Shown here piece by piece: positions 2,914-38,779 of a DNA stretch of 44,019 nt. The DNA is from a virus, in IMG/VR virus record IMGVR_UViG_3300003886_000010, positions 1 to 44,019 of that record. One strand, written 5' to 3'. The translations under genes were made by a program, and so were the position numbers. How positions within the stretch are numbered: position 1 is the stretch's first letter; every line of letters starts with the position of its first letter. Below the pieces are notes generated by a model that saw nothing but the letters and a program-made list of their open reading frames with translations, did no database searches and was not told the origin of the DNA.

Positions 2914-4739
2914 GCGCTAAACAAAAAGTGCCGCACAAGATAGCAAAACTTACAGGGTTTGAGCGTGCGTTGATGAAGTTGTCACCACGGATGGCATCAA
3001 ATCGATACCTTGCACGCATAAATTTGGAGTCGAACAGCCGCGCCTATGAGGCTGTAGAGAAGTCGCGGCTCAGAAAAGAGCAGCAGGACTCCCGCAGCGC
3101 GGACCAGATCGGCTCTATAAGTGCTGATAACCTACGCTTTAAGGCTCGATACCTGGACGAAAATCACGACGTTGCCAAGTCGGTTCTGAACACGTTGGTT
3201 GCCAACGTTGTTGGCGGAGGCATTTTAACGTTCCCCACCGTGCGCAATGTCGAGGGGGGTATTGATCGAGGTTTTAATGCGGAGCTGATGCGTCTGTTTA
3301 GACAGTGGTCTAGGCGGCCTGATGTCACGTGGTCACACACATGGGCGCGCTGTCAGCAACTTGCTGCGCGTTCGTGGTTCCGCGATGGTGAGGCGTTCAC
3401 ACAGATGTTCATGGGTAGCGTTGACGGGTTGGTGCACGGCTCGGCAGTACCGTTCTCAATTGAGCTTATGGAGGCTGACTTTTGCCCGACAAATGTGTTC
3501 AGCGATGGCCGCTCTCCAACGATTGCCTCACAAGTAGAGCCTGGAAATACCGTTCGGCAGGGCATTGAGCGTGACTCATTCAAGCGCCCGCAGGCGTACT
3601 TTTTTTGGAGGGACTACCCCAGTGAATTACAAACTCAATTTTCGCCGTTCATAATAAATCCGATTAACGTCAGCTTCGCAATCGACAGCGAGAATTTACT
3701 CCGGGTTGATGCTAGCCGCGTAGCGCACCTTAAAGTTGCAGATCGTATTGGTCAGACGCGCGGCATTTCAATCTTCGCCAGCGTGTACACGCGGCTTGAT
3801 GATTTGAAGGATTACGAGGAGAGCGAGCGTATTGCTGCGCGCATTGGCGCGGCGTTTGCGTTGGCCATTACAAAGCCGATTGACAGCGTGGGTAATTCCA
3901 GCGGCGCAGACTGGCGAGAAATGGATTTAGCCCCTGGGATAATTGCCGATAACCTAGCCCCCGGTGAGAAGATAGAGACGATAAAGAACGAGCGCCCCAC
4001 TAACGGCTTTGCCGATTGGCGGCAGGATCAGCTGCGCAGCGTCGCTGGTGGTTCTCGCGCAGGCTACTCGTCGTTGTCTAAAACATACGAAGGCTCCTAC
4101 AGCTCGCAAAGACAAGAGCTTATGGAGCAGTTTGTAATCTATCGGATGATTCGGGAGGAGTTCGTTGGCGAGTTTGTGGACCCGGTGTGGCGCACGTTTG
4201 TCACAATGGCGATTACCTCCGGCGCGCTAGATGCATTTTTGAGTGGGGTGGATCAGTCAACGTTGTTTGATGCTGAGCACGTTGGTCGAGGCGCGCCGTA
4301 CATCGAGCCGCGTAAAGAAGTTGAAGCGGATGAAAAGAAGGTGCTGGCTGGGTTCAATGCGCGCCACCAGATAATTTTGGAGCGCGGCGGCAACCCGTTA
4401 GAGACGCAGGCGTTGATTGAAGCCGAGCGCGAAATGGACGAGGAGGCGGGCTTGGTGTTCTCGTCTACTGCGCAACCCGAGCCAACCGCAGCACCGCCCG
4501 GCGACAGCTCGGGCGGTTCAGACAATGAGCCGGTTAATGATCCAGACGCGGACGATGATAGCGATGATGATAGTGAAGGCGACAGCGAGGATGATGATGC
4601 TCGCTTAGAGGGTGTTGACATCGGGGAGCGGGGCGAGCCTTTTATCGTTGGTGCGCGCTATGAAGCAAACGATGGAAATGTTTACGTCTACACCAAAGAC
4701 GGGATGATTCCCGAAGGCAGACAAGTCGCGGCGATATGA
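2910..4739 (+). CDS. Portal protein, lambda gpB family
   Basis: 609-residue portal, the dodecameric ring at the head vertex through which DNA passes. The family pattern is clear: the N-terminal RYLARINLESNSRAYEAVEKSR segment, ARYLDENHDVAKSVLNTLVANVVG, a core with FRDGEAFTQM and SIELMEADFCP, and EMDLAPGIIADNLAPGEKIE followed by the YSSLSKTYEGSYSSQRQEL stretch typical of lambda-type portals. After about residue 520 comes a highly acidic Asp/Glu/Ser run, then a short ordered end (FIVGARYEANDGNVYVY). The acidic tail is unlike lambda gpB and may be an added docking or scaffold-contact element. The start and end overlap both neighbours by 4 nt. Confidence 0.95.
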   Translation: MSAKQKVPHKIAKLTGFERALMKLSPRMASNRYLARINLESNSRAYEAVEKSRLRKEQQDSRSADQIGSISADNLRFKARYLDENHDVAKSVLNTLVANVVGGGILTFPTVRNVEGGIDRGFNAELMRLFRQWSRRPDVTWSHTWARCQQLAARSWFRDGEAFTQMFMGSVDGLVHGSAVPFSIELMEADFCPTNVFSDGRSPTIASQVEPGNTVRQGIERDSFKRPQAYFFWRDYPSELQTQFSPFIINPINVSFAIDSENLLRVDASRVAHLKVADRIGQTRGISIFASVYTRLDDLKDYEESERIAARIGAAFALAITKPIDSVGNSSGADWREMDLAPGIIADNLAPGEKIETIKNERPTNGFADWRQDQLRSVAGGSRAGYSSLSKTYEGSYSSQRQELMEQFVIYRMIREEFVGEFVDPVWRTFVTMAITSGALDAFLSGVDQSTLFDAEHVGRGAPYIEPRKEVEADEKKVLAGFNARHQIILERGGNPLETQALIEAEREMDEEAGLVFSSTAQPEPTAAPPGDSSGGSDNEPVNDPDADDDSDDDSEGDSEDDDARLEGVDIGERGEPFIVGARYEANDGNVYVYTKDGMIPEGRQVAAI

Positions 4740-6946
4740 AACTTAGCACACTAAAATTCACTCGCATTGACGATAGTGCGCTTGGCGCGCCGCATGTTTT
4801 GGCGATTCAGGCCGACGACCCGGCTGTGCTGTCTAGGTTTTTGAAAAACGTACCGGACCTTAAGGGTCTCAAGGGCGACAAGGGGTTGTCTGTAAAGGGC
4901 GACCCTGGACGCCGAGGCCGACGCGGCGAGCGTGGCTTGGCCCCGGACCATTTACTCCGAGTGGTGCCTAACGGCTACGAGTTACAGTTCTTTAATCCGC
5001 ATGGCGACATAGGCAAAGCGATTACCATCGTCAACGGCGGCAAAGGTGACAAAGGTAGAGTAGGCCCGCGCCCACACCACGAAACAAGAAAGGCAGCGGG
5101 CGGTTACGAGTTTAGGTTCCAGACGGCTGCCGGTACGTTCGGACCTTGGAACTTAGTTCGACAAGGCGATCAAGGTCCCCCAGGCCCCCGGCCTCGGCAT
5201 GAGTGGGTTGGCACCAGGTTGCGGTTCGAAAAGCCCGACGGCACCTTTGGCGAGCTTGTTGACTTGCGCGGTCCGGCGGGCTTAGGCGGTGGTGGTGGGC
5301 GAGGACGCTCAGCCAACCCCGGCTACTCGTCAATTGTTCTCAACGGCACTAACTTGGAGTTCCGCAGAGCAACGGCAGGACCACTAGGGCCGGATACAGT
5401 TGTAGACTTGTCCGCGCTTGCTGGTGGTGGCGGTTCGGTTGTTAGTGTGGTTGGTGGCGCTAACGTATCGGTTGATGCTACCGACGCGGCTAACCCAATA
5501 GTTAACCTGGACGGCGCGCTTGTAGGTGTCAGCGTTAACGGCGTCACTCTAACTGACGCGGGTCCGGCGTTTATTTTCCTGAACGCAGCCGGTGCCTACG
5601 TTTCGCCACCACCTAGCGGTGGCGACGTGGACATGGTTTTTAGCGGCTCGAACATCGACGTTGATAACAGCGACCCGATCAACCCGGTCGTTAATTTAGA
5701 TACCGCAGTTGTTGGCATAAGTGTCAACGGTGTAACACTGGTTGGCTCGGGTTCGGCAGCCAACTTTTTGGACGAGACGGGAACCTATTCGCCACCCCCG
5801 TTAGACACAACAGCGGCAGATATTTTGTATCTTCGACTAGACACGGCTAACGACCCGTTAACTGGTGAGCTGGTTTCGGAGGACATTGTACCCAGCGCTG
5901 GGGCGGATAGATTTTTGGGCTTGGCCGATAACCGCTTTGCCACCTTACATTCACAAAGCCTCAACGCGGTTGAGGATATAGGTACAGGTGGCGGACCGAC
6001 TACAATTATCGACACTAACAAATCTAACCTTGTAGGTAAGGTACGAAACTCTAGCGTCAGCGGGGCATCGCTAGCTTCCTTGCGCTCTACTGGCTTGGGT
6101 AGCTTTGCTAATGGGTTTGCCGCTCAGAATGATGCAAACGCAGCCACTACCAGTCAATCAATAGTATCGTCTACAGGTAATGGTTCGTTTGCGGCTGGTA
6201 ACAGTAACGCGTCGGCTGGCGGAAACGCCTTGCTACAAGCTGATGGATTTGGCAGCACAACCTTCGGATACAGTGCGGGATTCAATGGCCAAGCCACCAT
6301 ACTCTCTAATGGATTGGGCGCTTTTGCTTCAGGGTTCAGTTTAGCTTTTAGCCCCAACCCAACTATTATCAGCGCCATTGCTAATGGTGCTTTTGCGCAG
6401 GGTTCTATAATCACATTTGGTGGTTCTGTAGCTGCGACCATTACTGCCGCGCAGCAAGGATCGTTTGCTCAGGGACAAGCAGGGACCGATGGAATCATAA
6501 GAGCAGGCGGTCAAGGTTCTTTTTCACAAGGAACGGCTACAAGCGGAAACATAACAGCCAATGGCCTTGGATCATTCGCTCAAGGGATTGTAGCGGCTGG
6601 CACTATCATAGCTTCAGGTAACGGTTCACTGGCCCACGGCTCAGCTACGGGAACAGGATCGATCATTGCTGGTGGGTCTGGCGCGGATGCAGGAGCCTTA
6701 GCCGTTGGAAGCGCTGCGGGCTCCGTGATTGCAGCTCTGGCCCCCAATGCGTTCCAATTTGGACCTGGGGTTAACACTGCCTCTGATTCCTTACAGGTTG
6801 GAAACTCAGGGGTTCGATTCAAAGGAACGGTTGGTGCCCCCCCAGTTCTTCAAAACGGAGACATTTGGGTCAGTGGGGGGTTTGTCTTTGTCCGCTCGAA
6901 TGGGACTAGTATACAGATTGCCGGACCTGGGCCGCTAACCAACTAA
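4736..6946 (+). CDS. Collagen-like / YadA-like fiber protein
   Basis: 736-residue modular fiber. Residues about 40-70 hold a Gly-X-Y run (GLKGDKG..GDPGRRGRRGERG). Then three small beta blocks (NGYELQFFNPHGDIGK; GGYEFRFQTAAGTFG; TRLRFEKPDGTFGE) are separated by further collagen-like GDKG and GPPGP pieces. Two similar modules containing VNLD..VVGISVNGVTL follow. From about residue 450 to 660 there are roughly ten copies of a G(S/A)FAxG unit, the pattern of the YadA/trimeric autotransporter head, which forms a left-handed beta roll. The C-terminus (NGDIWVSGGFVFVRSNG) resembles trimeric fiber tips. It lies between portal and prohead protease, so a head or neck fiber is likely (inference). It overlaps the portal stop by 4 nt. 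Confidence 0.8.
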   Translation: MKLSTLKFTRIDDSALGAPHVLAIQADDPAVLSRFLKNVPDLKGLKGDKGLSVKGDPGRRGRRGERGLAPDHLLRVVPNGYELQFFNPHGDIGKAITIVNGGKGDKGRVGPRPHHETRKAAGGYEFRFQTAAGTFGPWNLVRQGDQGPPGPRPRHEWVGTRLRFEKPDGTFGELVDLRGPAGLGGGGGRGRSANPGYSSIVLNGTNLEFRRATAGPLGPDTVVDLSALAGGGGSVVSVVGGANVSVDATDAANPIVNLDGALVGVSVNGVTLTDAGPAFIFLNAAGAYVSPPPSGGDVDMVFSGSNIDVDNSDPINPVVNLDTAVVGISVNGVTLVGSGSAANFLDETGTYSPPPLDTTAADILYLRLDTANDPLTGELVSEDIVPSAGADRFLGLADNRFATLHSQSLNAVEDIGTGGGPTTIIDTNKSNLVGKVRNSSVSGASLASLRSTGLGSFANGFAAQNDANAATTSQSIVSSTGNGSFAAGNSNASAGGNALLQADGFGSTTFGYSAGFNGQATILSNGLGAFASGFSLAFSPNPTIISAIANGAFAQGSIITFGGSVAATITAAQQGSFAQGQAGTDGIIRAGGQGSFSQGTATSGNITANGLGSFAQGIVAAGTIIASGNGSLAHGSATGTGSIIAGGSGADAGALAVGSAAGSVIAALAPNAFQFGPGVNTASDSLQVGNSGVRFKGTVGAPPVLQNGDIWVSGGFVFVRSNGTSIQIAGPGPLTN

Positions 6947-26066: not shown

Positions 26067-26420
26067 TCAAGCTGCGACTTTTAAGTGCCCGGCTTTTATC
26101 GCACGCATGATGCGGTCGCGGGCGTAATCGAAACTGCAGCCCCGCTTTTTGATAAAGGCGTTAGCTACCGACTCTAGCGACGCTCGCTTACCCTTGCGCA
26201 CGCAGCTTTGGACTATGGCGTGGATGCTCCCCTCGATGGGCGGAGCTGCACCAGAGTCGCGTTCCAGCATGACATCGTTACGCAACCTCAGCCGCGTTCG
26301 CTTCTCAGCTTCCGGTGCAGCTTTGGCCTTGGCTGGGCTCTTCTTTTTGGGGGTTGCGCCTTTGGCCTTCGCTTTGGTTTTTGCGGCTGGGCGTTTTTTA
26401 GTCTTAGCTTTTGCGGTCAT
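26067..26420 (-). CDS. Nested in-frame start: histone H1-like basic protein
   Basis: In frame with the helicase, an internal ATG at 26420 is preceded by AAAGGACCTAATACC, nearly the same leader found before independent genes of this phage. Translation from it gives a 117-residue protein: residues 1-45 are Lys/Ala/Pro-rich like histone H1 or AlgP tails, and 70-117 form an ordered domain (HAIVQSCVRKGKRASLESVANAFIKKRG, then SFDYARDRIMRAIKAGHL) with a winged-helix-like look. So the phage may make both a fused and a free form. The alternative is that the leader is a relic of a gene that later fused with the helicase. Confidence 0.6.
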   Translation of the reverse strand: MTAKAKTKKRPAAKTKAKAKGATPKKKSPAKAKAAPEAEKRTRLRLRNDVMLERDSGAAPPIEGSIHAIVQSCVRKGKRASLESVANAFIKKRGCSFDYARDRIMRAIKAGHLKVAA

Positions 26421-27902
26421 GGTATTAGGTCCTTTACGTTTGCGATTACGCTCTAACAATGCTTGATAGAGCCTCTTTTGGTTGCTCCCCTTAACGCTAA
26501 GGTTTGCAACAACGTCTTCGTCAACCGTATTACGGGCGACTAGGTAGTGAACAAATACACGAAAACGTTGGCCTTGTCGCCACACACGTTTAATGAATTG
26601 GTCGTGATTCTCGAAATTCCAGCCTATCGAGTAGAAGCAAATGCACGCCTCTGGGCCTTGTAGGTTGAGGCCGTGCGCAATCGAATCGGGTTGGCCCAGT
26701 AGGGCAACCAGCTCCCCCCGGTTCCACATATCTATAGATTCATCGGCTTCCGCGTCGCTGGTACCACCACCGATAGCGCGCATCCAGGGGAAGTGCTTTT
26801 GAATACGTTGGCGTTCGTGGTCAAACTCATAAGCGATCAGTAGCGGCGTGCCCTGTAAATCGTCTATCAACTCGTCTAGCTCGTCTATTTTTTCGTTGTC
26901 TAGCTCTTGCCAGGGCCGGTTTTTCCGAGGCTCAGCTTCGAGCTTAGGTCGGGTATAGATAGCGCCGCCCGTTATCTGCCGCAGCTTTCCACCAGCAACG
27001 CCTTTGTTCGGCGCGACAATAATCCCAGCGTCGAGCACCGCCATAAATTCCTCTTCGATATCGTCATAGACGTTGCGCGCGGGCTCACCTAGTTCGATTT
27101 CATGGGTGATTTTAACCAGCGGGGGCAGGTCCAACTCCTCCTCCCCATAGTGCAGCCACACATCGCTAATGATTCCCGCGATCTCTTTGGCCGACGCGTC
27201 GCCGCCATCGTGGGTGCCGTCAGCAAGCTGCTGCCGCTGTAGCCGCCAGTCGTGGCCGTCGAACCCGCTGGGGTAGAACCAACGGTTGCGAAACTGGGTA
27301 ATGAAGCGCCCCAGCCTTTTGCCCAGGTCGAGGACATAAGTGGGCATGAAAAGGTCCATTTCGCTGTTGGGTTGCAGCGATCCGGTTAGGCAATAGCGCC
27401 GCTTAAATTCGTGAAGGTGCAGGCGTAACAACTTGGAGCGTTTGGGGGACCACCCCTTTATCTTGCTAGATTCATCACACACTAGCATATCGAACTGCGC
27501 GTAAATCTTTGGTGACTGAGCATATAACCAGAACAAGCTTTCGTAGGTCATTAGGTAGACGTCATGATCTTCTTGCAACAGCCGAAGTTTCTTTTTTGGG
27601 GTGCCGTGAACCACAGCCGCGTCCAGGTCTATACCCCATTTTGCAATCTCGTCGGGCCATACTTTGCGGATGATTCGGCGCTTAGCCAGCAGCAAAGTTT
27701 TTCGCACTTCGCCCTCGTCTTTCAGTATAGATATAGCCAGCAACGCTATTAAGGTTTTGCCTAGGCCGGGGGCTAGCGCCAGGCCGCATGACGCTTTTGT
27801 GAGCATCCAGTAGAGTGAAGTCAGCACATATTTTTTATTGTTGAAGGCGTCTTTGCTCTTGGAAATTTTCGATAGCGCCAACTTTCGTGTCGCAGCTAAC
27901 AT
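26067..27902 (-). CDS. SNF2-type DEAD/H helicase with histone-like tail
   Basis: 611-residue superfamily 2 helicase/translocase of the phage SNF2-like type. Motif I APGLGKT (44-50), motif II VCDESS (141-146), motif III TGSLQPNS, and motifs V-VI near 410-450 (IAHGLNLQGPEACICF; QFIKRVWRQGQR) are visible. From about residue 488 the helicase fold ends and a Lys/Ala/Pro-rich, histone H1-like segment begins (KAKTKKRPAAKTKAKAKG...), then a small ordered domain to the end. It starts inside the VRR-NUC gene (68-nt overlap; TTG 27908 is an alternative start). It probably unwinds or remodels phage DNA in replication or recombination. An internal start for the tail is annotated separately. Confidence 0.88.
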   Translation of the reverse strand: MLAATRKLALSKISKSKDAFNNKKYVLTSLYWMLTKASCGLALAPGLGKTLIALLAISILKDEGEVRKTLLLAKRRIIRKVWPDEIAKWGIDLDAAVVHGTPKKKLRLLQEDHDVYLMTYESLFWLYAQSPKIYAQFDMLVCDESSKIKGWSPKRSKLLRLHLHEFKRRYCLTGSLQPNSEMDLFMPTYVLDLGKRLGRFITQFRNRWFYPSGFDGHDWRLQRQQLADGTHDGGDASAKEIAGIISDVWLHYGEEELDLPPLVKITHEIELGEPARNVYDDIEEEFMAVLDAGIIVAPNKGVAGGKLRQITGGAIYTRPKLEAEPRKNRPWQELDNEKIDELDELIDDLQGTPLLIAYEFDHERQRIQKHFPWMRAIGGGTSDAEADESIDMWNRGELVALLGQPDSIAHGLNLQGPEACICFYSIGWNFENHDQFIKRVWRQGQRFRVFVHYLVARNTVDEDVVANLSVKGSNQKRLYQALLERNRKRKGPNTMTAKAKTKKRPAAKTKAKAKGATPKKKSPAKAKAAPEAEKRTRLRLRNDVMLERDSGAAPPIEGSIHAIVQSCVRKGKRASLESVANAFIKKRGCSFDYARDRIMRAIKAGHLKVAA

Positions 27903-28146
27903 AGGCAAAGCCCCAACTCTGGAAGACGTGACCCCAGTAGCGTTGTAGCTTTTGTCCGCGCCGTTTTTTCGGGGCGTCGGGGCGCTTGAACTCTATAAAA
28001 AGCACAAACTTTCCTGGGCCAATGATAAGTCGGTCGGGCAGACCGGCCAGCTTTAAAAGCTTGATGCATAGATAGTCCGGGTACTCTGATTTGATGTGTG
28101 CAGTGAACGGGCGCTCAACGTCACGCTCTAAAGTATTTCGTATCAC
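27835..28146 (-). CDS. VRR-NUC domain nuclease
   Basis: 103-residue stand-alone VRR-NUC protein, a PD-(D/E)XK nuclease family linked to Holliday-junction and flap cleavage. Catalytic pattern: GLPDRLIIGPGKFVLFIEFKRP with Asp38, Glu52 and Lys54, then the QKLQRYWGHVFQSWGF helix. The GTG start overlaps the preceding micro-ORF stop (GTGA). It overlaps the helicase start downstream, and VRR-NUC genes are often found next to SNF2-type helicases in phages, so the pair may act together. Confidence 0.88.
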   Translation of the reverse strand: MIRNTLERDVERPFTAHIKSEYPDYLCIKLLKLAGLPDRLIIGPGKFVLFIEFKRPDAPKKRRGQKLQRYWGHVFQSWGFAYVSCDTKVGAIENFQEQRRLQQ

Positions 28147-28226: not shown

Positions 28227-28387
28227 TCTTCAAAGTCGCGAGAGCAGACGCGAGTTCTGGTGTCGTTAAACACCAGGAGCCAAAAACGCCATCTATACCA
28301 GTCTCGCCTAACCCTGTTTTTAAAGTGAGCGCGGCAAAAGACGCTGAACAAGTCGTAGCACTCTATATAACCACCATAATCTCGCAT
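28223..28387 (-). CDS. Small aromatic-rich hypothetical protein
   Basis: 54-residue protein rich in Tyr, Trp, Phe and Arg (DWYRWRFWLLVFNDTRTRV). ATG 28387 overlaps the upstream nuclease stop (TAATG) and has AAAGGGG upstream; GTG 28408 is an alternative start. Its stop overlaps the next micro-ORF. No family is recognised; the pattern of a central hydrophobic strand pair suggests a small folded domain. Confidence 0.6.
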   Translation of the reverse strand: MRDYGGYIECYDLFSVFCRAHFKNRVRRDWYRWRFWLLVFNDTRTRVCSRDFEE

Positions 28388-29154
28388 TAGCTGGTTACCC
28401 CTTTCCACTCGTTACAGTCACCATACTCGCCGTTGCCTAGCAGCTTATCACTGCGGAACGGGCACCACTTGCAAGCATCAGAGCTTGGCGTCTTTGGAAA
28501 CAACCGGCCCCCCAACATAGGTTTGATGCGCTTGATCCAGTCTCGCTTCATTGATTTTAGGTCCTTAAGCAGAAACGTCATGGGTAAGGTGTCGCCGCTG
28601 TCCCAATACCAGAACTCAACGTCCACCGCATCATACTCCGCTTGGTGGCGCTCAAGCGCTAACATGCCGTATATCTCCGCTTGCATTTGATGCTTGTCTG
28701 TTCTCATTGCTCCAGACTTACCGTCTATAACGGTAAGGGTGTCGCTGAGAACAGCGATATCGAGCTTAGCGCGCAGCCACGCCTTATCGAAGTCGTCCGA
28801 GGCGCAAGGTAACCAGTTGGCGTCAATGGTGTAGTCAACCTCTGCAACTGCGCCCAGCTCTCTGATTGCTTTGTACTCACCAGCAAACGTTAACAGCTCT
28901 TTGGGCACACGCTTAATCTCCCCCTCGATGTAGCTCTGCGATAGTAGGTGCAGCTTATTGCCCCGATCAAAAGCGGGGTTGTCAAAGCGCGGCAGTACGA
29001 CTTTGGCTATGTGCTTAAGCGCGTAGCGGTAGGGGCATAGGTAGAAATCCTCGTAGCGTGAATAGCTCCAAAACTGTGGTATTTTATTGAAGGCACGACG
29101 TTGAGGTTTGGCTTTGCCTTTGCCGTCTTTCGGGGCGAACTTTGATCTGGGCAT
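28387..29154 (-). CDS. Cas4/RecB-like PD-(D/E)XK exonuclease
   Basis: 255-residue nuclease of the PD-(D/E)XK superfamily. Visible: Asp132 (LDIAVL), Asp144-x-Lys146 in VIDGKSG, and a QAEIYG motif near 158. One cysteine before the core (Cys40 in FYLCPYRYAL) and three after it (Cys228, Cys231, Cys247) make the four-cysteine 4Fe-4S set typical of Cas4 and AddB-type exonucleases. The first 22 residues are Lys-rich and disordered. The ATG is preceded by CAGGACCCAACCCC, the recurring leader. It probably processes DNA ends in phage replication or recombination. Confidence 0.9.
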   Translation of the reverse strand: MPRSKFAPKDGKGKAKPQRRAFNKIPQFWSYSRYEDFYLCPYRYALKHIAKVVLPRFDNPAFDRGNKLHLLSQSYIEGEIKRVPKELLTFAGEYKAIRELGAVAEVDYTIDANWLPCASDDFDKAWLRAKLDIAVLSDTLTVIDGKSGAMRTDKHQMQAEIYGMLALERHQAEYDAVDVEFWYWDSGDTLPMTFLLKDLKSMKRDWIKRIKPMLGGRLFPKTPSSDACKWCPFRSDKLLGNGEYGDCNEWKGVTS

Positions 29155-29168
29155 GGGGTTGGGTCCTG

Positions 29169-29483
29169 TTATGAGTTTGCTATTTTACGTTGCTCAAGCA
29201 GCCAAACCGTTAAACGGTTAGATGCTTCGCTGTTGTTGTGCTTGTCGGGGTGAGTGAGCCTTATGAGGGCGTCTATCTCTTTGTTAAACTCGTTACGAAA
29301 CCTATCCACCCCCAAACCTGGCCCGCCTAAGAACGCGCTTTCCGGTTGGCCGTTGCGCCCCTTCCAGGTGCCATCATCTATCTTGGACTGACGCCAGCAA
29401 GCAAAGCATTCGAGAGCCCATTTCTTTTCTGGGTCTACTTTAAACTCCTCCCCACAGCTTGTGCAGTCACGAAAATACGCCAC
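29169..29483 (-). CDS. Zinc-ribbon protein with HPD (J-domain-like) motif
   Basis: 104-residue protein: Cys7, Cys10, Cys26 and Cys29 form a zinc ribbon, and residues 70-95 contain RLTHPDKHNNSEASNRL, where HPD at 78-80 is the signature that stimulates DnaK ATPase. The full J-domain is not present, only its helix II end and loop. Starts at GTG within the TAGTG overlap of the DNA polymerase stop; the leader AAGGACCCGACGTA lies inside the end of the polymerase gene. It may recruit host DnaK to the replication machinery (inference). Confidence 0.75.
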   Translation of the reverse strand: MAYFRDCTSCGEEFKVDPEKKWALECFACWRQSKIDDGTWKGRNGQPESAFLGGPGLGVDRFRNEFNKEIDALIRLTHPDKHNNSEASNRLTVWLLEQRKIANS

Positions 29484-31438
29484 TACGTCGGGTCCTTAAA
29501 CGGTTTGAGCTGCGCCCACGACTTACCAGACCACGCGCCGTCTGTAGGTAGTGACACGTCTAGTTGTAAATCCTCCATCGCTTCGCGCATCAGCGACATT
29601 TCTTTTCGCCAGTTGCCGCGCGCCGAGTTAACCACCATTTGATCGTAGACCTGTAACCTGATATCCAACCCGGCGGCATCGACTTGCAGCATCGCTTGCT
29701 TGGTGAGGTCCGCAGCGCTGCCCTGGATTAGAAGGTTGAGCATCTTGTAGTCAAAATCCATCCAACGCCGGTGCTGTCTGGAATACTGCGGGGGCTCGCA
29801 GGTGTACAGCCGCCCGCCGTAGGTTCGCATTGGTACGTTTTGCTTGACCATCGCTTTAAGCTCTGAGCTTAGGTCAGCCACCCCCGGCATGGCATCCATG
29901 TATACCGACTTCATTTTTCTGGCGGTGTCTCGATCTGTGCCAAGCGCTTCTGCCAGAGCGTCTACACCGCCACCGTAAATAACCATGAACGCAATGATTT
30001 TAACGGCCTTGTGGGGTAGGTCTATACCAACGATGTCTAGTATCAATCCGCGTACCATGTGATGCACGTTCATTTTTGGGTTGGCTAACATCGCATCCAT
30101 TAACGCGCCGTTCTCGTAGTGCGCCAGCACGCGCATTTCTTGTTGGGCATAGTCACGGTCGATAAAGACGCAACCCTTATCTGGCACGATGTAGTCCCGC
30201 ATCCCCAGGAACTCAAGGTTGTACTCGGTAAGTAGAAGACTAGCCAACGCCATCAGCACGTCACGATTTTTCGACTCGCTAACGTCAACGGGTATGTTGT
30301 TAAAGTTTGGCTTAGAGACCGACGGCCGCCCGGTTTTTGTGCCCCGCGTTCCACGTCCGCCATGCTCGTCGGTGGTGCGTATCAGATTGAACGTGGGGTG
30401 TATGCGGCCGTTGCCCGCAGTCCCGGCGTCTATCCACGCGCTAAAAAATGTGTTGCAGTAGGTGTCTATCACCGAGTGCATACCCATATCTAGCATCAGT
30501 CGCTTGTCTTTGCATATGGGTATAAGATTTTGTAGCGACGTTGATCGCTGCCCTTTTGGGTGTGTGTCGCTGGGTTGCGTGTAAATCCAGCGCGTCGGGT
30601 CTATTTTGCCGGATGCTTCTAGTGCGTCAGCGACCTGCTTAGAGCTGTTGAGGTTAAACACACCTTTCGGCAGCGTGGCCTCAAGCTTCTTTGTTATTTT
30701 TAGACGGCTTTTTATGCGGCCGTTGAGTTTGGTACGCAGGTTTTCGAATTTCGGCAGGTCACGCTTGAGGCGCGTTTGCGCAGTGAGTAGGCCGCTACGC
30801 TCCATCTTCAGCTTAATGCGTATCAGCTTTAGCTCGCGCGCATAGGCATCGAGCATCCCCATTTGTTTTATTAGGGGGTGCAGCAGCTTGAACAGCTTCA
30901 GCGTTCTGATGGTATCGCCTTTGGCGTAACGACCCACCAGCTTGCCCGGCGCTTGCGCTATGTACGCCCCCCAGTTAGAGGCCGTGAGCTTCTTACCTAA
31001 CGGTGGCGTAACGTTCGCCATGATCCACAACCGCAGCGCCGCTTGCTCGTCGGGGGGCATATCCAGCCAGGTATCGGCTAAACGCTTGAGCGCTAAGCTT
31101 TCCTCACGCGGGTTGTTTAGGTAGGCAAGCAGTTCAGTGTCGTGGTACTCAGTCTTGCCGATGATAGGCAGGCCCAGGTGTACCTCCCCCACGTCATGAT
31201 CGAAAGCTAAGTTGTGACAGATTATGGCGTGGCTTTTTATAAAGGCGCGGATGTCTTTGGTGGCTCTGGCGCGGGTGGTGTTGTTGTTAAGGGGGTGCCC
31301 CCACGCGAGGTAGATCGGCTTGCCGCCCTCGGGGTAGAGGGAGCAGCCGACTGGCGCGGGTGGGTAGGCCGGTCGATTTTCAATGCTTTGGGTTTCGTAG
31401 TCTAGGGCTGCCAGTCTCATGTTGTTAGTGCCATACAC
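29483..31438 (-). CDS. DNA polymerase, family A, with 3'-5' exonuclease
   Basis: 651-residue replicative polymerase. Exonuclease motifs: Exo I DYE (13-15), Exo II HNLAFD (75-80), Exo III YxxxD (171-175). Polymerase motif A FIDRDYAQQEMR with Asp429; motif B KIIAFMVIYG with Lys480, Phe484 and Tyr488; motif C QVYDQMV with Asp599. In motif C the usual His-Asp-Glu is replaced by Tyr-Asp-Gln, and the Arg four residues before the motif B Lys is His. No 5'-3' exonuclease domain is present. GTG 31438 is preferred because TAAGG lies 6-10 nt before it; ATG 31420 is an alternative. The start overlaps the small zinc protein by 14 nt. Confidence 0.95.
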   Translation of the reverse strand: MYGTNNMRLAALDYETQSIENRPAYPPAPVGCSLYPEGGKPIYLAWGHPLNNNTTRARATKDIRAFIKSHAIICHNLAFDHDVGEVHLGLPIIGKTEYHDTELLAYLNNPREESLALKRLADTWLDMPPDEQAALRLWIMANVTPPLGKKLTASNWGAYIAQAPGKLVGRYAKGDTIRTLKLFKLLHPLIKQMGMLDAYARELKLIRIKLKMERSGLLTAQTRLKRDLPKFENLRTKLNGRIKSRLKITKKLEATLPKGVFNLNSSKQVADALEASGKIDPTRWIYTQPSDTHPKGQRSTSLQNLIPICKDKRLMLDMGMHSVIDTYCNTFFSAWIDAGTAGNGRIHPTFNLIRTTDEHGGRGTRGTKTGRPSVSKPNFNNIPVDVSESKNRDVLMALASLLLTEYNLEFLGMRDYIVPDKGCVFIDRDYAQQEMRVLAHYENGALMDAMLANPKMNVHHMVRGLILDIVGIDLPHKAVKIIAFMVIYGGGVDALAEALGTDRDTARKMKSVYMDAMPGVADLSSELKAMVKQNVPMRTYGGRLYTCEPPQYSRQHRRWMDFDYKMLNLLIQGSAADLTKQAMLQVDAAGLDIRLQVYDQMVVNSARGNWRKEMSLMREAMEDLQLDVSLPTDGAWSGKSWAQLKPFKDPT

Positions 31439-32434: not shown

Positions 32435-33316
32435 TTAGCTGAACTTCGACCGCTTAGCCCGGACCTTGGCCTTTGGGGCGGCCTTTGCTTTGGCTTTGGC
32501 CTTGGCTTTAGATTTAGCCTTGGGTGCGGCTTTGGCCTTGGCTTTAGATTTAGCCTTGGGTGCGGCTTTGCGTTTTGCTGTTGCGCGCTTTTTCGGCTCT
32601 GGGTTATTAGCCTCATAACTTGAGAAGTCGGGGTATTGCATCACCGCCTCACTAAACACGCTGTCCATGTCCATGATGCTGCCGAGCAGCAGCGCGTCGG
32701 TGTGTTGCTCAACAGCATCGGTGTCGGGCAGCAGCAGCTTGAAGGTTGCTTCGACGTCACTGTTGTCAAAGTAGAACGTTGTCTTCACCCCCCAAACTGG
32801 CAGGTCCAGCTTTACCGCAAGCGCTTGAACGTACTCGTTCCACGGCTTTATTGACGTTGGGGGTAGGGTTAGGTAGGCGGTCTCGACGTCACGGGCATCC
32901 TTTGTATCGTCTGGTATAACTACGAGCCGGTACTGGTTCTTACACGCCTTGCCGCGTCCGATTTCGGCAGAGCCAAAAGCATTTTTCGAGCAGCCGTCAC
33001 AGTAATGGCTTTGTCGGTTCGGAGACTCCTTTGACGGTTGCATGCCATCGCCGTCGTGCGATAGCGCAATGCAATCTGGAGCCTGTATGTTTGCGCTGTC
33101 GAAGTCGGCTGAGTAGTAGGCGTTCTGCTGAGCAAAATCGACAACGGTGCAGGTGAACCGATCTCCTATAAGCTGCCCCTTGAACGTAAACCGCTCGTTT
33201 CGAGTGCCGATTACATTGCCGCCCGTGGTGACAAGCCGTGCGCGCCCCCCCTCAGCGCTAACTTTCATACGCGCTTTGATGTCCTTCATGGAGATCGGTA
33301 GGTTCTTTTTAGGCAT
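32435..33316 (-). CDS. Cys-motif replication-region protein with histone-like tail
   Basis: 293-residue protein. The body (about 1-235) has a CDGCSKNAFGSAEIGRGKACKN motif near 107-128, a pattern I recall from early-region phage proteins sometimes annotated as ssDNA-binding; the pairing of a beta-rich N-terminus with LTLPPTSIKPWNEYVQAL in the middle fits. I cannot prove single-strand binding. The last 50 residues are an almost pure Lys/Ala/Pro/Ser tail, like histone H1, encoded by a perfect 36-bp tandem repeat. The gene follows the upstream neighbour by 4 nt. The tail probably contacts phage DNA. Confidence 0.65.
   Translation of the reverse strand: MPKKNLPISMKDIKARMKVSAEGGRARLVTTGGNVIGTRNERFTFKGQLIGDRFTCTVVDFAQQNAYYSADFDSANIQAPDCIALSHDGDGMQPSKESPNRQSHYCDGCSKNAFGSAEIGRGKACKNQYRLVVIPDDTKDARDVETAYLTLPPTSIKPWNEYVQALAVKLDLPVWGVKTTFYFDNSDVEATFKLLLPDTDAVEQHTDALLLGSIMDMDSVFSEAVMQYPDFSSYEANNPEPKKRATAKRKAAPKAKSKAKAKAAPKAKSKAKAKAKAKAAPKAKVRAKRSKFS
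32492..32563 (-). repeat. Perfect 36-bp tandem repeat in Lys/Ala tail
   Basis: Two identical 36-bp units (32492-32527 and 32528-32563) and the first 7 bases of a third. The unit is in frame, so each copy adds 12 residues of Lys/Ala/Pro/Ser sequence to the tail of the encoded protein. Copy number could vary between isolates by slippage. Confidence 0.9.
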
Positions 33317-33320
33317 GGTT

Positions 33321-33821
33321 TTATTTGCTCCGGGTTAATCTGATTGTGGTTTTTTCGAACGTCTCAACGCCCGGTATGGGCTTGCCGTCAGACTCTACTC
33401 GCTCTAGCCAAGCGGCTTTGTTTACTCGACCCTGGAATAGTTCAAACGCTTTTTTGCGCAGCACGTAACGTTCGAACGCAGATCGATCTGTAAGGCTGGG
33501 GGATTTGGTGGTGGTGAGTGCAATGCGCGCCAAGCCGGTGGCACCGCTCGCGCCGCGTAGCTCGTCTTTAGTAAACGCGTCTTGCAGCTCATTAGATAAA
33601 GCTTCCCTTATCTTTTTTACTGCTGACAAGTGCGCCTCTACCTTCTTTACCTCGAAGTCGGCCACGTCGTATGCGTCTACCATTCGCCCTATCGACTTGC
33701 GCCTCTTTGGTTTTGGCGACTTTGCCACGGCTGCGCGTTTTTTTGCGGCGCGCTTTTTTGGCGGGGCGATCTTCCGCTTGACGACCTTTTTCGATGGCGC
33801 TTTCTTTTTGGCTCTGGGCAT
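33321..33821 (-). CDS. Basic-tailed hypothetical protein
   Basis: 166-residue protein. The first 45 residues are Lys/Arg/Ala/Pro-rich (PRAKKKAPSKKVVKRKIAPP), similar to the histone-like tails of neighbours. Residues 46-166 form a helical then mixed domain (VEAHLSAVKKIREALSNELQDAF; FEKTTIRLTRSK). The N-terminal 230 nt are also read in another frame by the preceding gene. Start at ATG 33821 (weak ribosome site). Family not recognised. Confidence 0.65.
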   Translation of the reverse strand: MPRAKKKAPSKKVVKRKIAPPKKRAAKKRAAVAKSPKPKRRKSIGRMVDAYDVADFEVKKVEAHLSAVKKIREALSNELQDAFTKDELRGASGATGLARIALTTTKSPSLTDRSAFERYVLRKKAFELFQGRVNKAAWLERVESDGKPIPGVETFEKTTIRLTRSK

Positions 33822-34787: not shown

Positions 34788-35303
34788 CTAGGCACCGGGG
34801 CCTAGTAGCTCGTCTAGGAGCATAGAGCGTATCACCCGCCGCTCTGCGGTGGTTGCGCTTAGGTATTCAAGCCGGATGGGGGCAACGCAGTCGCGCCAGG
34901 CTCGCAGCTTCTCCGTTTTTAACCGTGCGTACGCCGCCTTTTGGTGTTTTTGTTTTCTTGCGGCGGCGTCAAGTAACGACCATAGGGTTATCATTGGCGT
35001 CAAACTGGCTTCGAGTGCTGGGCTAATCAACTGTGCGTCGAAAGTCGAAAAGTACGCGGCACCTTCGTCTGTGCACTCGCCCGCGTAAACGCGGCCCAAT
35101 ATAAAGCTTGCATATTTGGGTTTGTACAACCAGCGATACTTGTCGAGCTGTTCAACGTAGTTTTTTTCGCCGACCTCGCTGAACAAATGGTGCAGCGTGC
35201 GGCCGTCGAACCGCACGCCCTGGTAGACTAGGCGCTTAGTCGTTACGACCTCTTTTTTCGCTGGCGCTCTCTTGGCTGGTTTTTTCTTCGGCTTGGGCAT
35301 CAT
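34788..35303 (-). CDS. Hypothetical protein with Lys-rich N-terminus
   Basis: 171-residue protein. The first 18 residues are Lys/Pro/Ala-rich (PKPKKKPAKRAPAKKE), another histone-like extension. The rest is a mixed alpha/beta domain (FDGRTLHHLFSEVGEKNYVEQLDKYRWLY; then a helical end with ATTAERRVIRSMLLDELL). Starts with a double ATG overlapping the upstream TGA (ATGATG). No family is recognised. Confidence 0.6.
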   Translation of the reverse strand: MMPKPKKKPAKRAPAKKEVVTTKRLVYQGVRFDGRTLHHLFSEVGEKNYVEQLDKYRWLYKPKYASFILGRVYAGECTDEGAAYFSTFDAQLISPALEASLTPMITLWSLLDAAARKQKHQKAAYARLKTEKLRAWRDCVAPIRLEYLSATTAERRVIRSMLLDELLGPGA

Positions 35304-38174: not shown

Positions 38175-38711
38175 TCAAACTATCCTATTGAGCGCCATTT
38201 TAACGTGGCGCTTGAGCAAGGCTGCGTCTGGTTGGTTTTCAAAGGCGTGCTCAATCGGCTTTTTTTCGAGCGACACGATACGTGCGCGATAGCCTTCTAG
38301 CGTCGCTGTCTTGGTCATTACGGAAACAGTGAGCCTACCGTCTGCCGGTATAGTGTCGTGAAAACAACTCGGACCCCCAACGCCGTAACTCTCCCCCGCA
38401 ACTATGCGCCTTTCAGATATCTTCTCTATGTCACACTCGCCGTAATACTCTAGCGGCGAGGATTTGTCGCTGAACGTCGGCCCTTGTTGGTATAGCGTGT
38501 GCTCGCAGTCCGTCCCTATTTTTACCGCGTAGCGTACATCTATTAGCGCGCCCAGCAGCACTTGTGATATGAACGTAAAGCGGTGGTCGTGTATGCGCGC
38601 ATTTTGTACGCGCGTTGCAGGCAGGTCTTGCGACCAAATGTGCAGTCGGGTCAGTTCGTTTAGGTAGACTTGGATAAAGCCGTTGCCGTGAAATCGGGGT
38701 TTCAAAATCAT
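38175..38711 (-). CDS. Cupin-like phage protein
   Basis: 178-residue protein with a cupin-like metal pattern: [17 protein letters not shown] near 40-56, then [29 protein letters not shown] at about 104-132. The two His-x-His/Glu-type motifs fit a small beta-barrel. Catalytic role unknown; I recall homologs in phage early regions. The ATG is preceded by TAAGGACCCAACCTC, one of the clearest copies of the shared leader. Confidence 0.7.
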
Positions 38712-38779
38712 GAGGTTGGGTCCTTAGTTGATTTAAGAAAAGCGCCGGAGCAATCGACGCAGCCATGCCAATATCCGCT

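Follow-up and report, generated by a model that had tools for sequence, protein, structure and literature searches.

A basic Lys/Ala/Pro-rich module in frame at the 3' end of a phage SNF2-type helicase gene, with a putative start codon of its own

The viral DNA analysed here (IMG/VR record IMGVR_UViG_3300003886_000010, 44,019 nucleotides, referred to as the window) carries an SNF2-type helicase gene that continues in frame, with no stop before position 26067, into a basic tail rich in lysine, alanine and proline (K/A/P). The reading frame (ORF 26067-27908, minus strand) holds an in-frame ATG at 26420, its codon 497 (Table 1). On balance, comparison of the sequences somewhat favours a helicase gene that was fused to a formerly separate basic-protein gene and that would yield two products. 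The helicase would have been joined in frame to its downstream neighbour, a gene encoding a small, basic protein that binds DNA. Translation from the helicase start would give a helicase that its K/A/P-rich tail and small, winged-helix-like domain keep on the DNA, and initiation at ATG 26420 via a phage-type leader would release a free basic protein of 117 residues and 12.7 kDa. The free protein may coat or bend DNA, in competition or in cooperation with the tethered form. The production of both forms, DNA binding by the tail and the anchoring of the helicase are inferences.

Table 1. Features of the helicase locus and its gene block in the window
Feature	Position	Strand	Basis
SNF2-family (superfamily 2) helicase body, residues 1-496	26421..27908	-	PF00176, phrog_62, alignment of 30 helicases
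Leader AGGACCTAATACC directly before ATG 26420; phage start motif	26421..26433	-	6 motif matches vs 0.07 expected
Nested in-frame ORF, 117 codons from ATG 26420; K/A/P-rich tail and small three-helix domain	26067..26420	-	
Basic low-complexity tail, 40 residues, 75% K/A/P, TPKK and SPAK motifs	26301..26420	-	
Predicted three-helix domain, winged-helix-like, tail residues 62-109	26094..26237	-	AlphaFold2, Foldseek
Small endonuclease-like ORF, same gene block	27835..28146	-	phrog_93 endonuclease, E=2e-9
PD-(D/E)XK (RecB/Cas4-like) exonuclease, same replication block	28387..29154	-	Pfam/PHROGs; start with phage leader motif

Residues 1-490 of the ORF form a complete SNF2 helicase (Pfam PF00176, E=8e-18; phrog_62, E=1e-109). 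The phrog_62 match covers residues 34-499, and the conserved helicase block ends at about residue 490. The SNF2/helicase core of the phage SNF2-type helicases (phrog_62) is present in one protein. Unlike the usual end of phrog_62 helicases, the ORF runs 117 residues beyond codon 496; this long C-terminal extension makes it a variant of the group and not a non-member, as the short end is usual but not defining. The start codon of the helicase is uncertain and could be TTG 27908 or ATG 27902. The small endonuclease-like ORF on the same strand and the helicase ORF share about 70 bases at the helicase start.

The position where related helicases end is informative for the origin of the tail. Viral contigs and phage records supplied the 143 homologous helicase loci that were compared, with several contigs fetched twice. 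An extension of more than 40 residues past the conserved helicase body is found in four of them (L040, L052, L069 and L134), and the remaining homologues stop at the position of ATG 26420. The tail is considered an appended gene because all but these four loci stop at the junction. In an alignment of 30 helicases, the 29 homologues likewise end at the window junction. The helicases of the closest isolate phages finish, before their stop, with '...LQRRRRGR' (PW916) and '...LQRRRRSRR' (AXL3), and that of the uncultured MW202621 with '...LAKKRRVR'. These ends align with '...LLERNRKRK' in the window, immediately before GPNTM, which places the leader of the nested gene at the former end of the helicase. 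No close sister phage was found by DNA polymerase and capsid scans. Of the extended relatives, L069 (2857-4893) and L134 (2914-5007) differ in that their C-terminal extension, about 200 residues long, is rich in Q/A/P.

As for the tail itself, its 117 residues have a charge of +23 and a pI of 11.0. Lysine makes up 35% of residues 497-536, and the small domain lies within residues 537-613. In a single-sequence AlphaFold2 model, the three helices are predicted with a pLDDT of 78-85, and the basic part is coil-like and of low confidence. The top PDB folds returned by Foldseek for the domain are the winged helices of SAMD1 and KAT6A (prob 0.99-1.0), with non-significant E-values of 0.27-0.5. The winged-helix-like identity of the domain is a lead from modelling only. 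Pfam, PHROGs and PDB-sequence searches with the tail gave weak matches only, and no histone family in Pfam/PHROGs matched it. The Pfam families of linker histone H1/H5 and bacterial Hc1 returned nothing at E<=1 for the tail or at E<=10 for the small domain. With regard to membership of the H1/H5/Hc1 group, the long Lys/Ala/Pro-rich basic tail is present (75% K/A/P over 40 residues), and the H1 domain order is reversed, with the basic stretch first and then the domain. The tail is named "basic, H1-like in composition" and is not filed as a histone because it does not match the H1-like family PF07432. No relative of the tail turned up in searches of viral and genome contigs, of phages or of plasmids. 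K/A/P-rich tails are, however, found on other proteins of the same minus-strand gene block, at the C-terminus of 32435-33316 and at the N-termini of 33321-33821 and 34788-35303, and in this phage they look like a general DNA-affinity tag.

An earlier sequence-only reading of the window had placed a Lys/Ala/Pro-rich tail and a small domain in the last 117 codons, in frame with the helicase, and these coordinates proved right. Its term "histone H1-like" holds for the composition but not for family match or domain order, and the winged-helix resemblance is non-significant. The stand-alone homologue that it proposed to look for among relatives was not found for the exact tail; only proteins of similar layout were.

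Two further candidates were rejected. An "EGS" domain seemed to be shared by the window, L052 and L037, but phmmer with either L052 or L037 as the single query missed the others, and a three-sequence profile retrieved its own members only. The plus-strand ORFs 26149-26466 and 26208-26456, which overlap the tail, were judged by eye to be mirrors of its repetitive codons.

ATG 26420 is preceded by the leader AACGTAAAGGACCTAATACC-ATG, and positions 26421-26433 double as coding sequence for the helicase residues K/G-P-N-T. Its generic Shine-Dalgarno (SD) pairing is moderate (-5.3 kcal/mol). An SD as good is found in 18% of the 1001 ATGs of the window and, among 979 internal ATGs of homologous helicases, in 14%; synonymous recoding attains it in 27% of cases. 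The leader does fit a start motif particular to this phage. The pattern AGGACCYRA-N3-6-RTG occurs six times in the window, against 0.07 expected from shuffles, and none of 100 shuffles reaches six. As the pattern was written after inspecting starts, its excess establishes that such a motif exists, whereas its use at 26420 is argued from specificity: four of the five other matches are plain gene starts (129+, 38711-, 29483- and 29154-). Their leaders lie at 116-131 on the plus strand and at 38709-38724, 29481-29496 and 29152-29167 on the minus strand. When the 974 ATGs outside the training set are scored with a matrix built from 27 other gene starts, 26420 comes fourth, and the top-ranked ATG, 38711-, is itself a gene start. 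An in-frame start codon with a ribosome-binding leader at a domain junction, as looked for in a nested two-product gene, is found at ATG 26420. From its sequence, ATG 26420 is likely to be a real start. Motif and in-frame ATG together are nevertheless not proof, because the same motif is also found internally at 28551 on the minus strand (AGGACCTAAAATCA-ATG), in frame inside the exonuclease gene. Initiation at 28551 would yield the C-terminal 54 residues of the exonuclease, a piece that contains Cys, and this match may be due to chance.

Parallel fusions are found in other phages. In L040 and L052, whose helicases are 41% and 37% identical to that of the window, the helicase is in frame with a lysine-rich tail and a small domain. 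Their junction ATGs have strong leaders, with SDs of -8.9 and -7.4 at codons 492 and 642 of L040 and of -8.7 at codon 498 of L052; about 1% of the 979 internal helicase ATGs reach -8.7. The small domain of L040 matches phage transcriptional regulators (phrog_14147, E=3e-4), and the structure model of the L052 tail was too poor for use. Furthermore, stand-alone K/A/P-rich ORFs are found downstream of the helicase in L037, L041, L059, L065 and L132, among others; none of them shows detectable homology to the window tail. In L132, a protein of 216 amino acids (4401-5102) directly follows the helicase stop. It has a K/A/P-rich C-terminal module, and this module has an internal ATG with an SD of -8.5 (AAGGAGATAAATATC-ATG).

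A similar arrangement with another partner is seen in proteins resembling gp32 of phage AXL3. In these, an N-terminal domain leads to "...E-x-x-MATxKK", which is followed by a K/A/P-rich stretch and then by a small domain. The patterns used for scanning were taken from the gp32-like C-terminal domain, with no selection for fusion. The 49 loci fetched in this way and the earlier examples gave 52 gp32-like loci with the module (members include L035 7211-7975, L125 5217-5912 and L148-L196). An in-frame ATG at the junction of N-terminal domain and basic module is present in 51 of the 52. The best junction ATG has an SD of -5.3 kcal/mol or stronger (<= -5.3) in 48 loci, compared to 12.7% of the control ATGs, which were 71 ATGs located upstream in the same genes. 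When the ATG was picked for its closeness to the module, irrespective of SD, 30 of the 35 non-redundant members had an SD <= -5.3 kcal/mol. In this set the mean junction SD is -7.17, against -5.37 (sd 0.39) after synonymous recoding; none of 2000 simulations was as strong, a P value that is indicative only, as the sequences are related and not fully independent. The frame is uninterrupted across the junction, as is expected if the fusion and the free form are both kept. Searches with HMMER and hhalign detected no homology between the tail domain of the window and the gp32-like domain, and the family therefore supports the kind of arrangement and not this instance.

Taken against these results, the fusion proposed in the sequence-only reading is well supported, since nearly all helicase homologues end at the junction. 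The gene-like leader that it saw at ATG 26420 matches a phage-specific motif, and as a generic SD it is only moderate. For its two-product reading, the phage leader, the junction SDs of L040 and L052 and the conserved starts of the gp32-like genes provide indirect support.

It could be argued that only the fusion matters. The helicase would recently have lost its stop, the tail would be a DNA-anchoring extension, and ATG and leader would be relics in a gene of which only the 613-residue protein counts. The exact tail occurs in this contig alone, so the event may be recent. Moreover, in contrast to the helicase tail, the K/A/P-rich tail of 32435-33316, another early protein of this phage, has neither an ATG nor a leader at its boundary, which implies that such tails are usable without a free form. 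On the other hand, a phage-type leader is still present at the helicase junction, and divergent gp32-like genes retain the junction start, with an SD that exceeds what the encoded peptide demands. This account is regarded as unlikely, though it deserves to be taken seriously.

A technical origin is less probable still. In a metagenomic contig, a sequencing or assembly error that skipped a base or a stop would have joined two ordinary adjacent genes; the sequence comes from an IMG/VR virus record, stops in another frame lie right at the leader, and it is at this very point that the ancestral helicase ended. However, the AAA run found there is too short to make a homopolymer slip especially likely, and the independent contigs L040 and L052 have analogous in-frame fusions, all of which makes an error improbable. 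Pure coincidence, in which the tail was born as a helicase extension and ATG and AGGA leader arose by chance in lysine and glycine codons, would fit the 14-18% of ATGs with an equally good SD and the internal motif at 28551. It fits poorly with the expectation of 0.07 exact motifs per window and with the position of ATG 26420, exactly at the domain junction where the homologues end, and it is considered very improbable. The preferred reading is the fusion of helicase and basic-protein genes with two products.

A broader proposal can be made more tentatively, with slightly less than even confidence. A group of phages may systematically nest K/A/P-rich DNA-binding modules in frame at the 3' end of genes of the early replication block, the helicase gene here and the gp32-like gene in AXL3 relatives, and so obtain tethered and free copies; the arrangement would have arisen more than once, with different partners, and would be kept by selection. 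The nested basic modules with conserved starts across phages are a more interesting result than the single helicase case. If both forms are made, one gene would set the ratio of DNA-anchored helicase to free DNA-coating protein and would couple genome remodelling with DNA condensation in a compact way. As the gp32-like family occurs in a cultured phage, the idea is directly testable. AXL3 gp32 is annotated solely as one long hypothetical protein, and long-form-only annotation of this kind would miss nested proteins.

Several known systems resemble parts of this arrangement. The predicted three helices of the tail superpose on SAMD1 (PDB 6lui) with an rmsd of 1.0 A over 49 residues and a Foldseek prob of 1.0. 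Nevertheless, with E-values of 0.27-0.5 and about 16-20% identity, the function of SAMD1 or KAT6A (MOZ/MORF; 6lui, 8h7a; PMC9908889) is not transferable, and the single-sequence model of the tail has no beta-hairpin. H1-like PF07432 proteins have been reported in "moraphages" (PMC12619734). Like these proteins and Chlamydia Hc1, the tail is short, very basic, rich in Lys/Ala/Pro and presumed to bind DNA; it differs in that it has no PF07432 match, precedes a separate small domain and is fused to a helicase. Stenotrophomonas phage AXL3 gp32 shares the upstream domain, the in-frame ATG with SD, the K/A/P-rich stretch and the small domain, and it lies in the same replication neighbourhood. Its N-terminal partner is different, and the small domains have no detectable sequence homology. 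In Haloferax volcanii, an internal in-frame methionine of cas8b yields the free C-terminal small protein Cas11b (PMC11899642). In that system the small product itself was observed and its role put to the test (PMC11899642), whereas the tail here is an addition to a phage helicase and its free form is a prediction from sequence; the likeness is that of one gene giving two proteins via an internal methionine of a large ORF.
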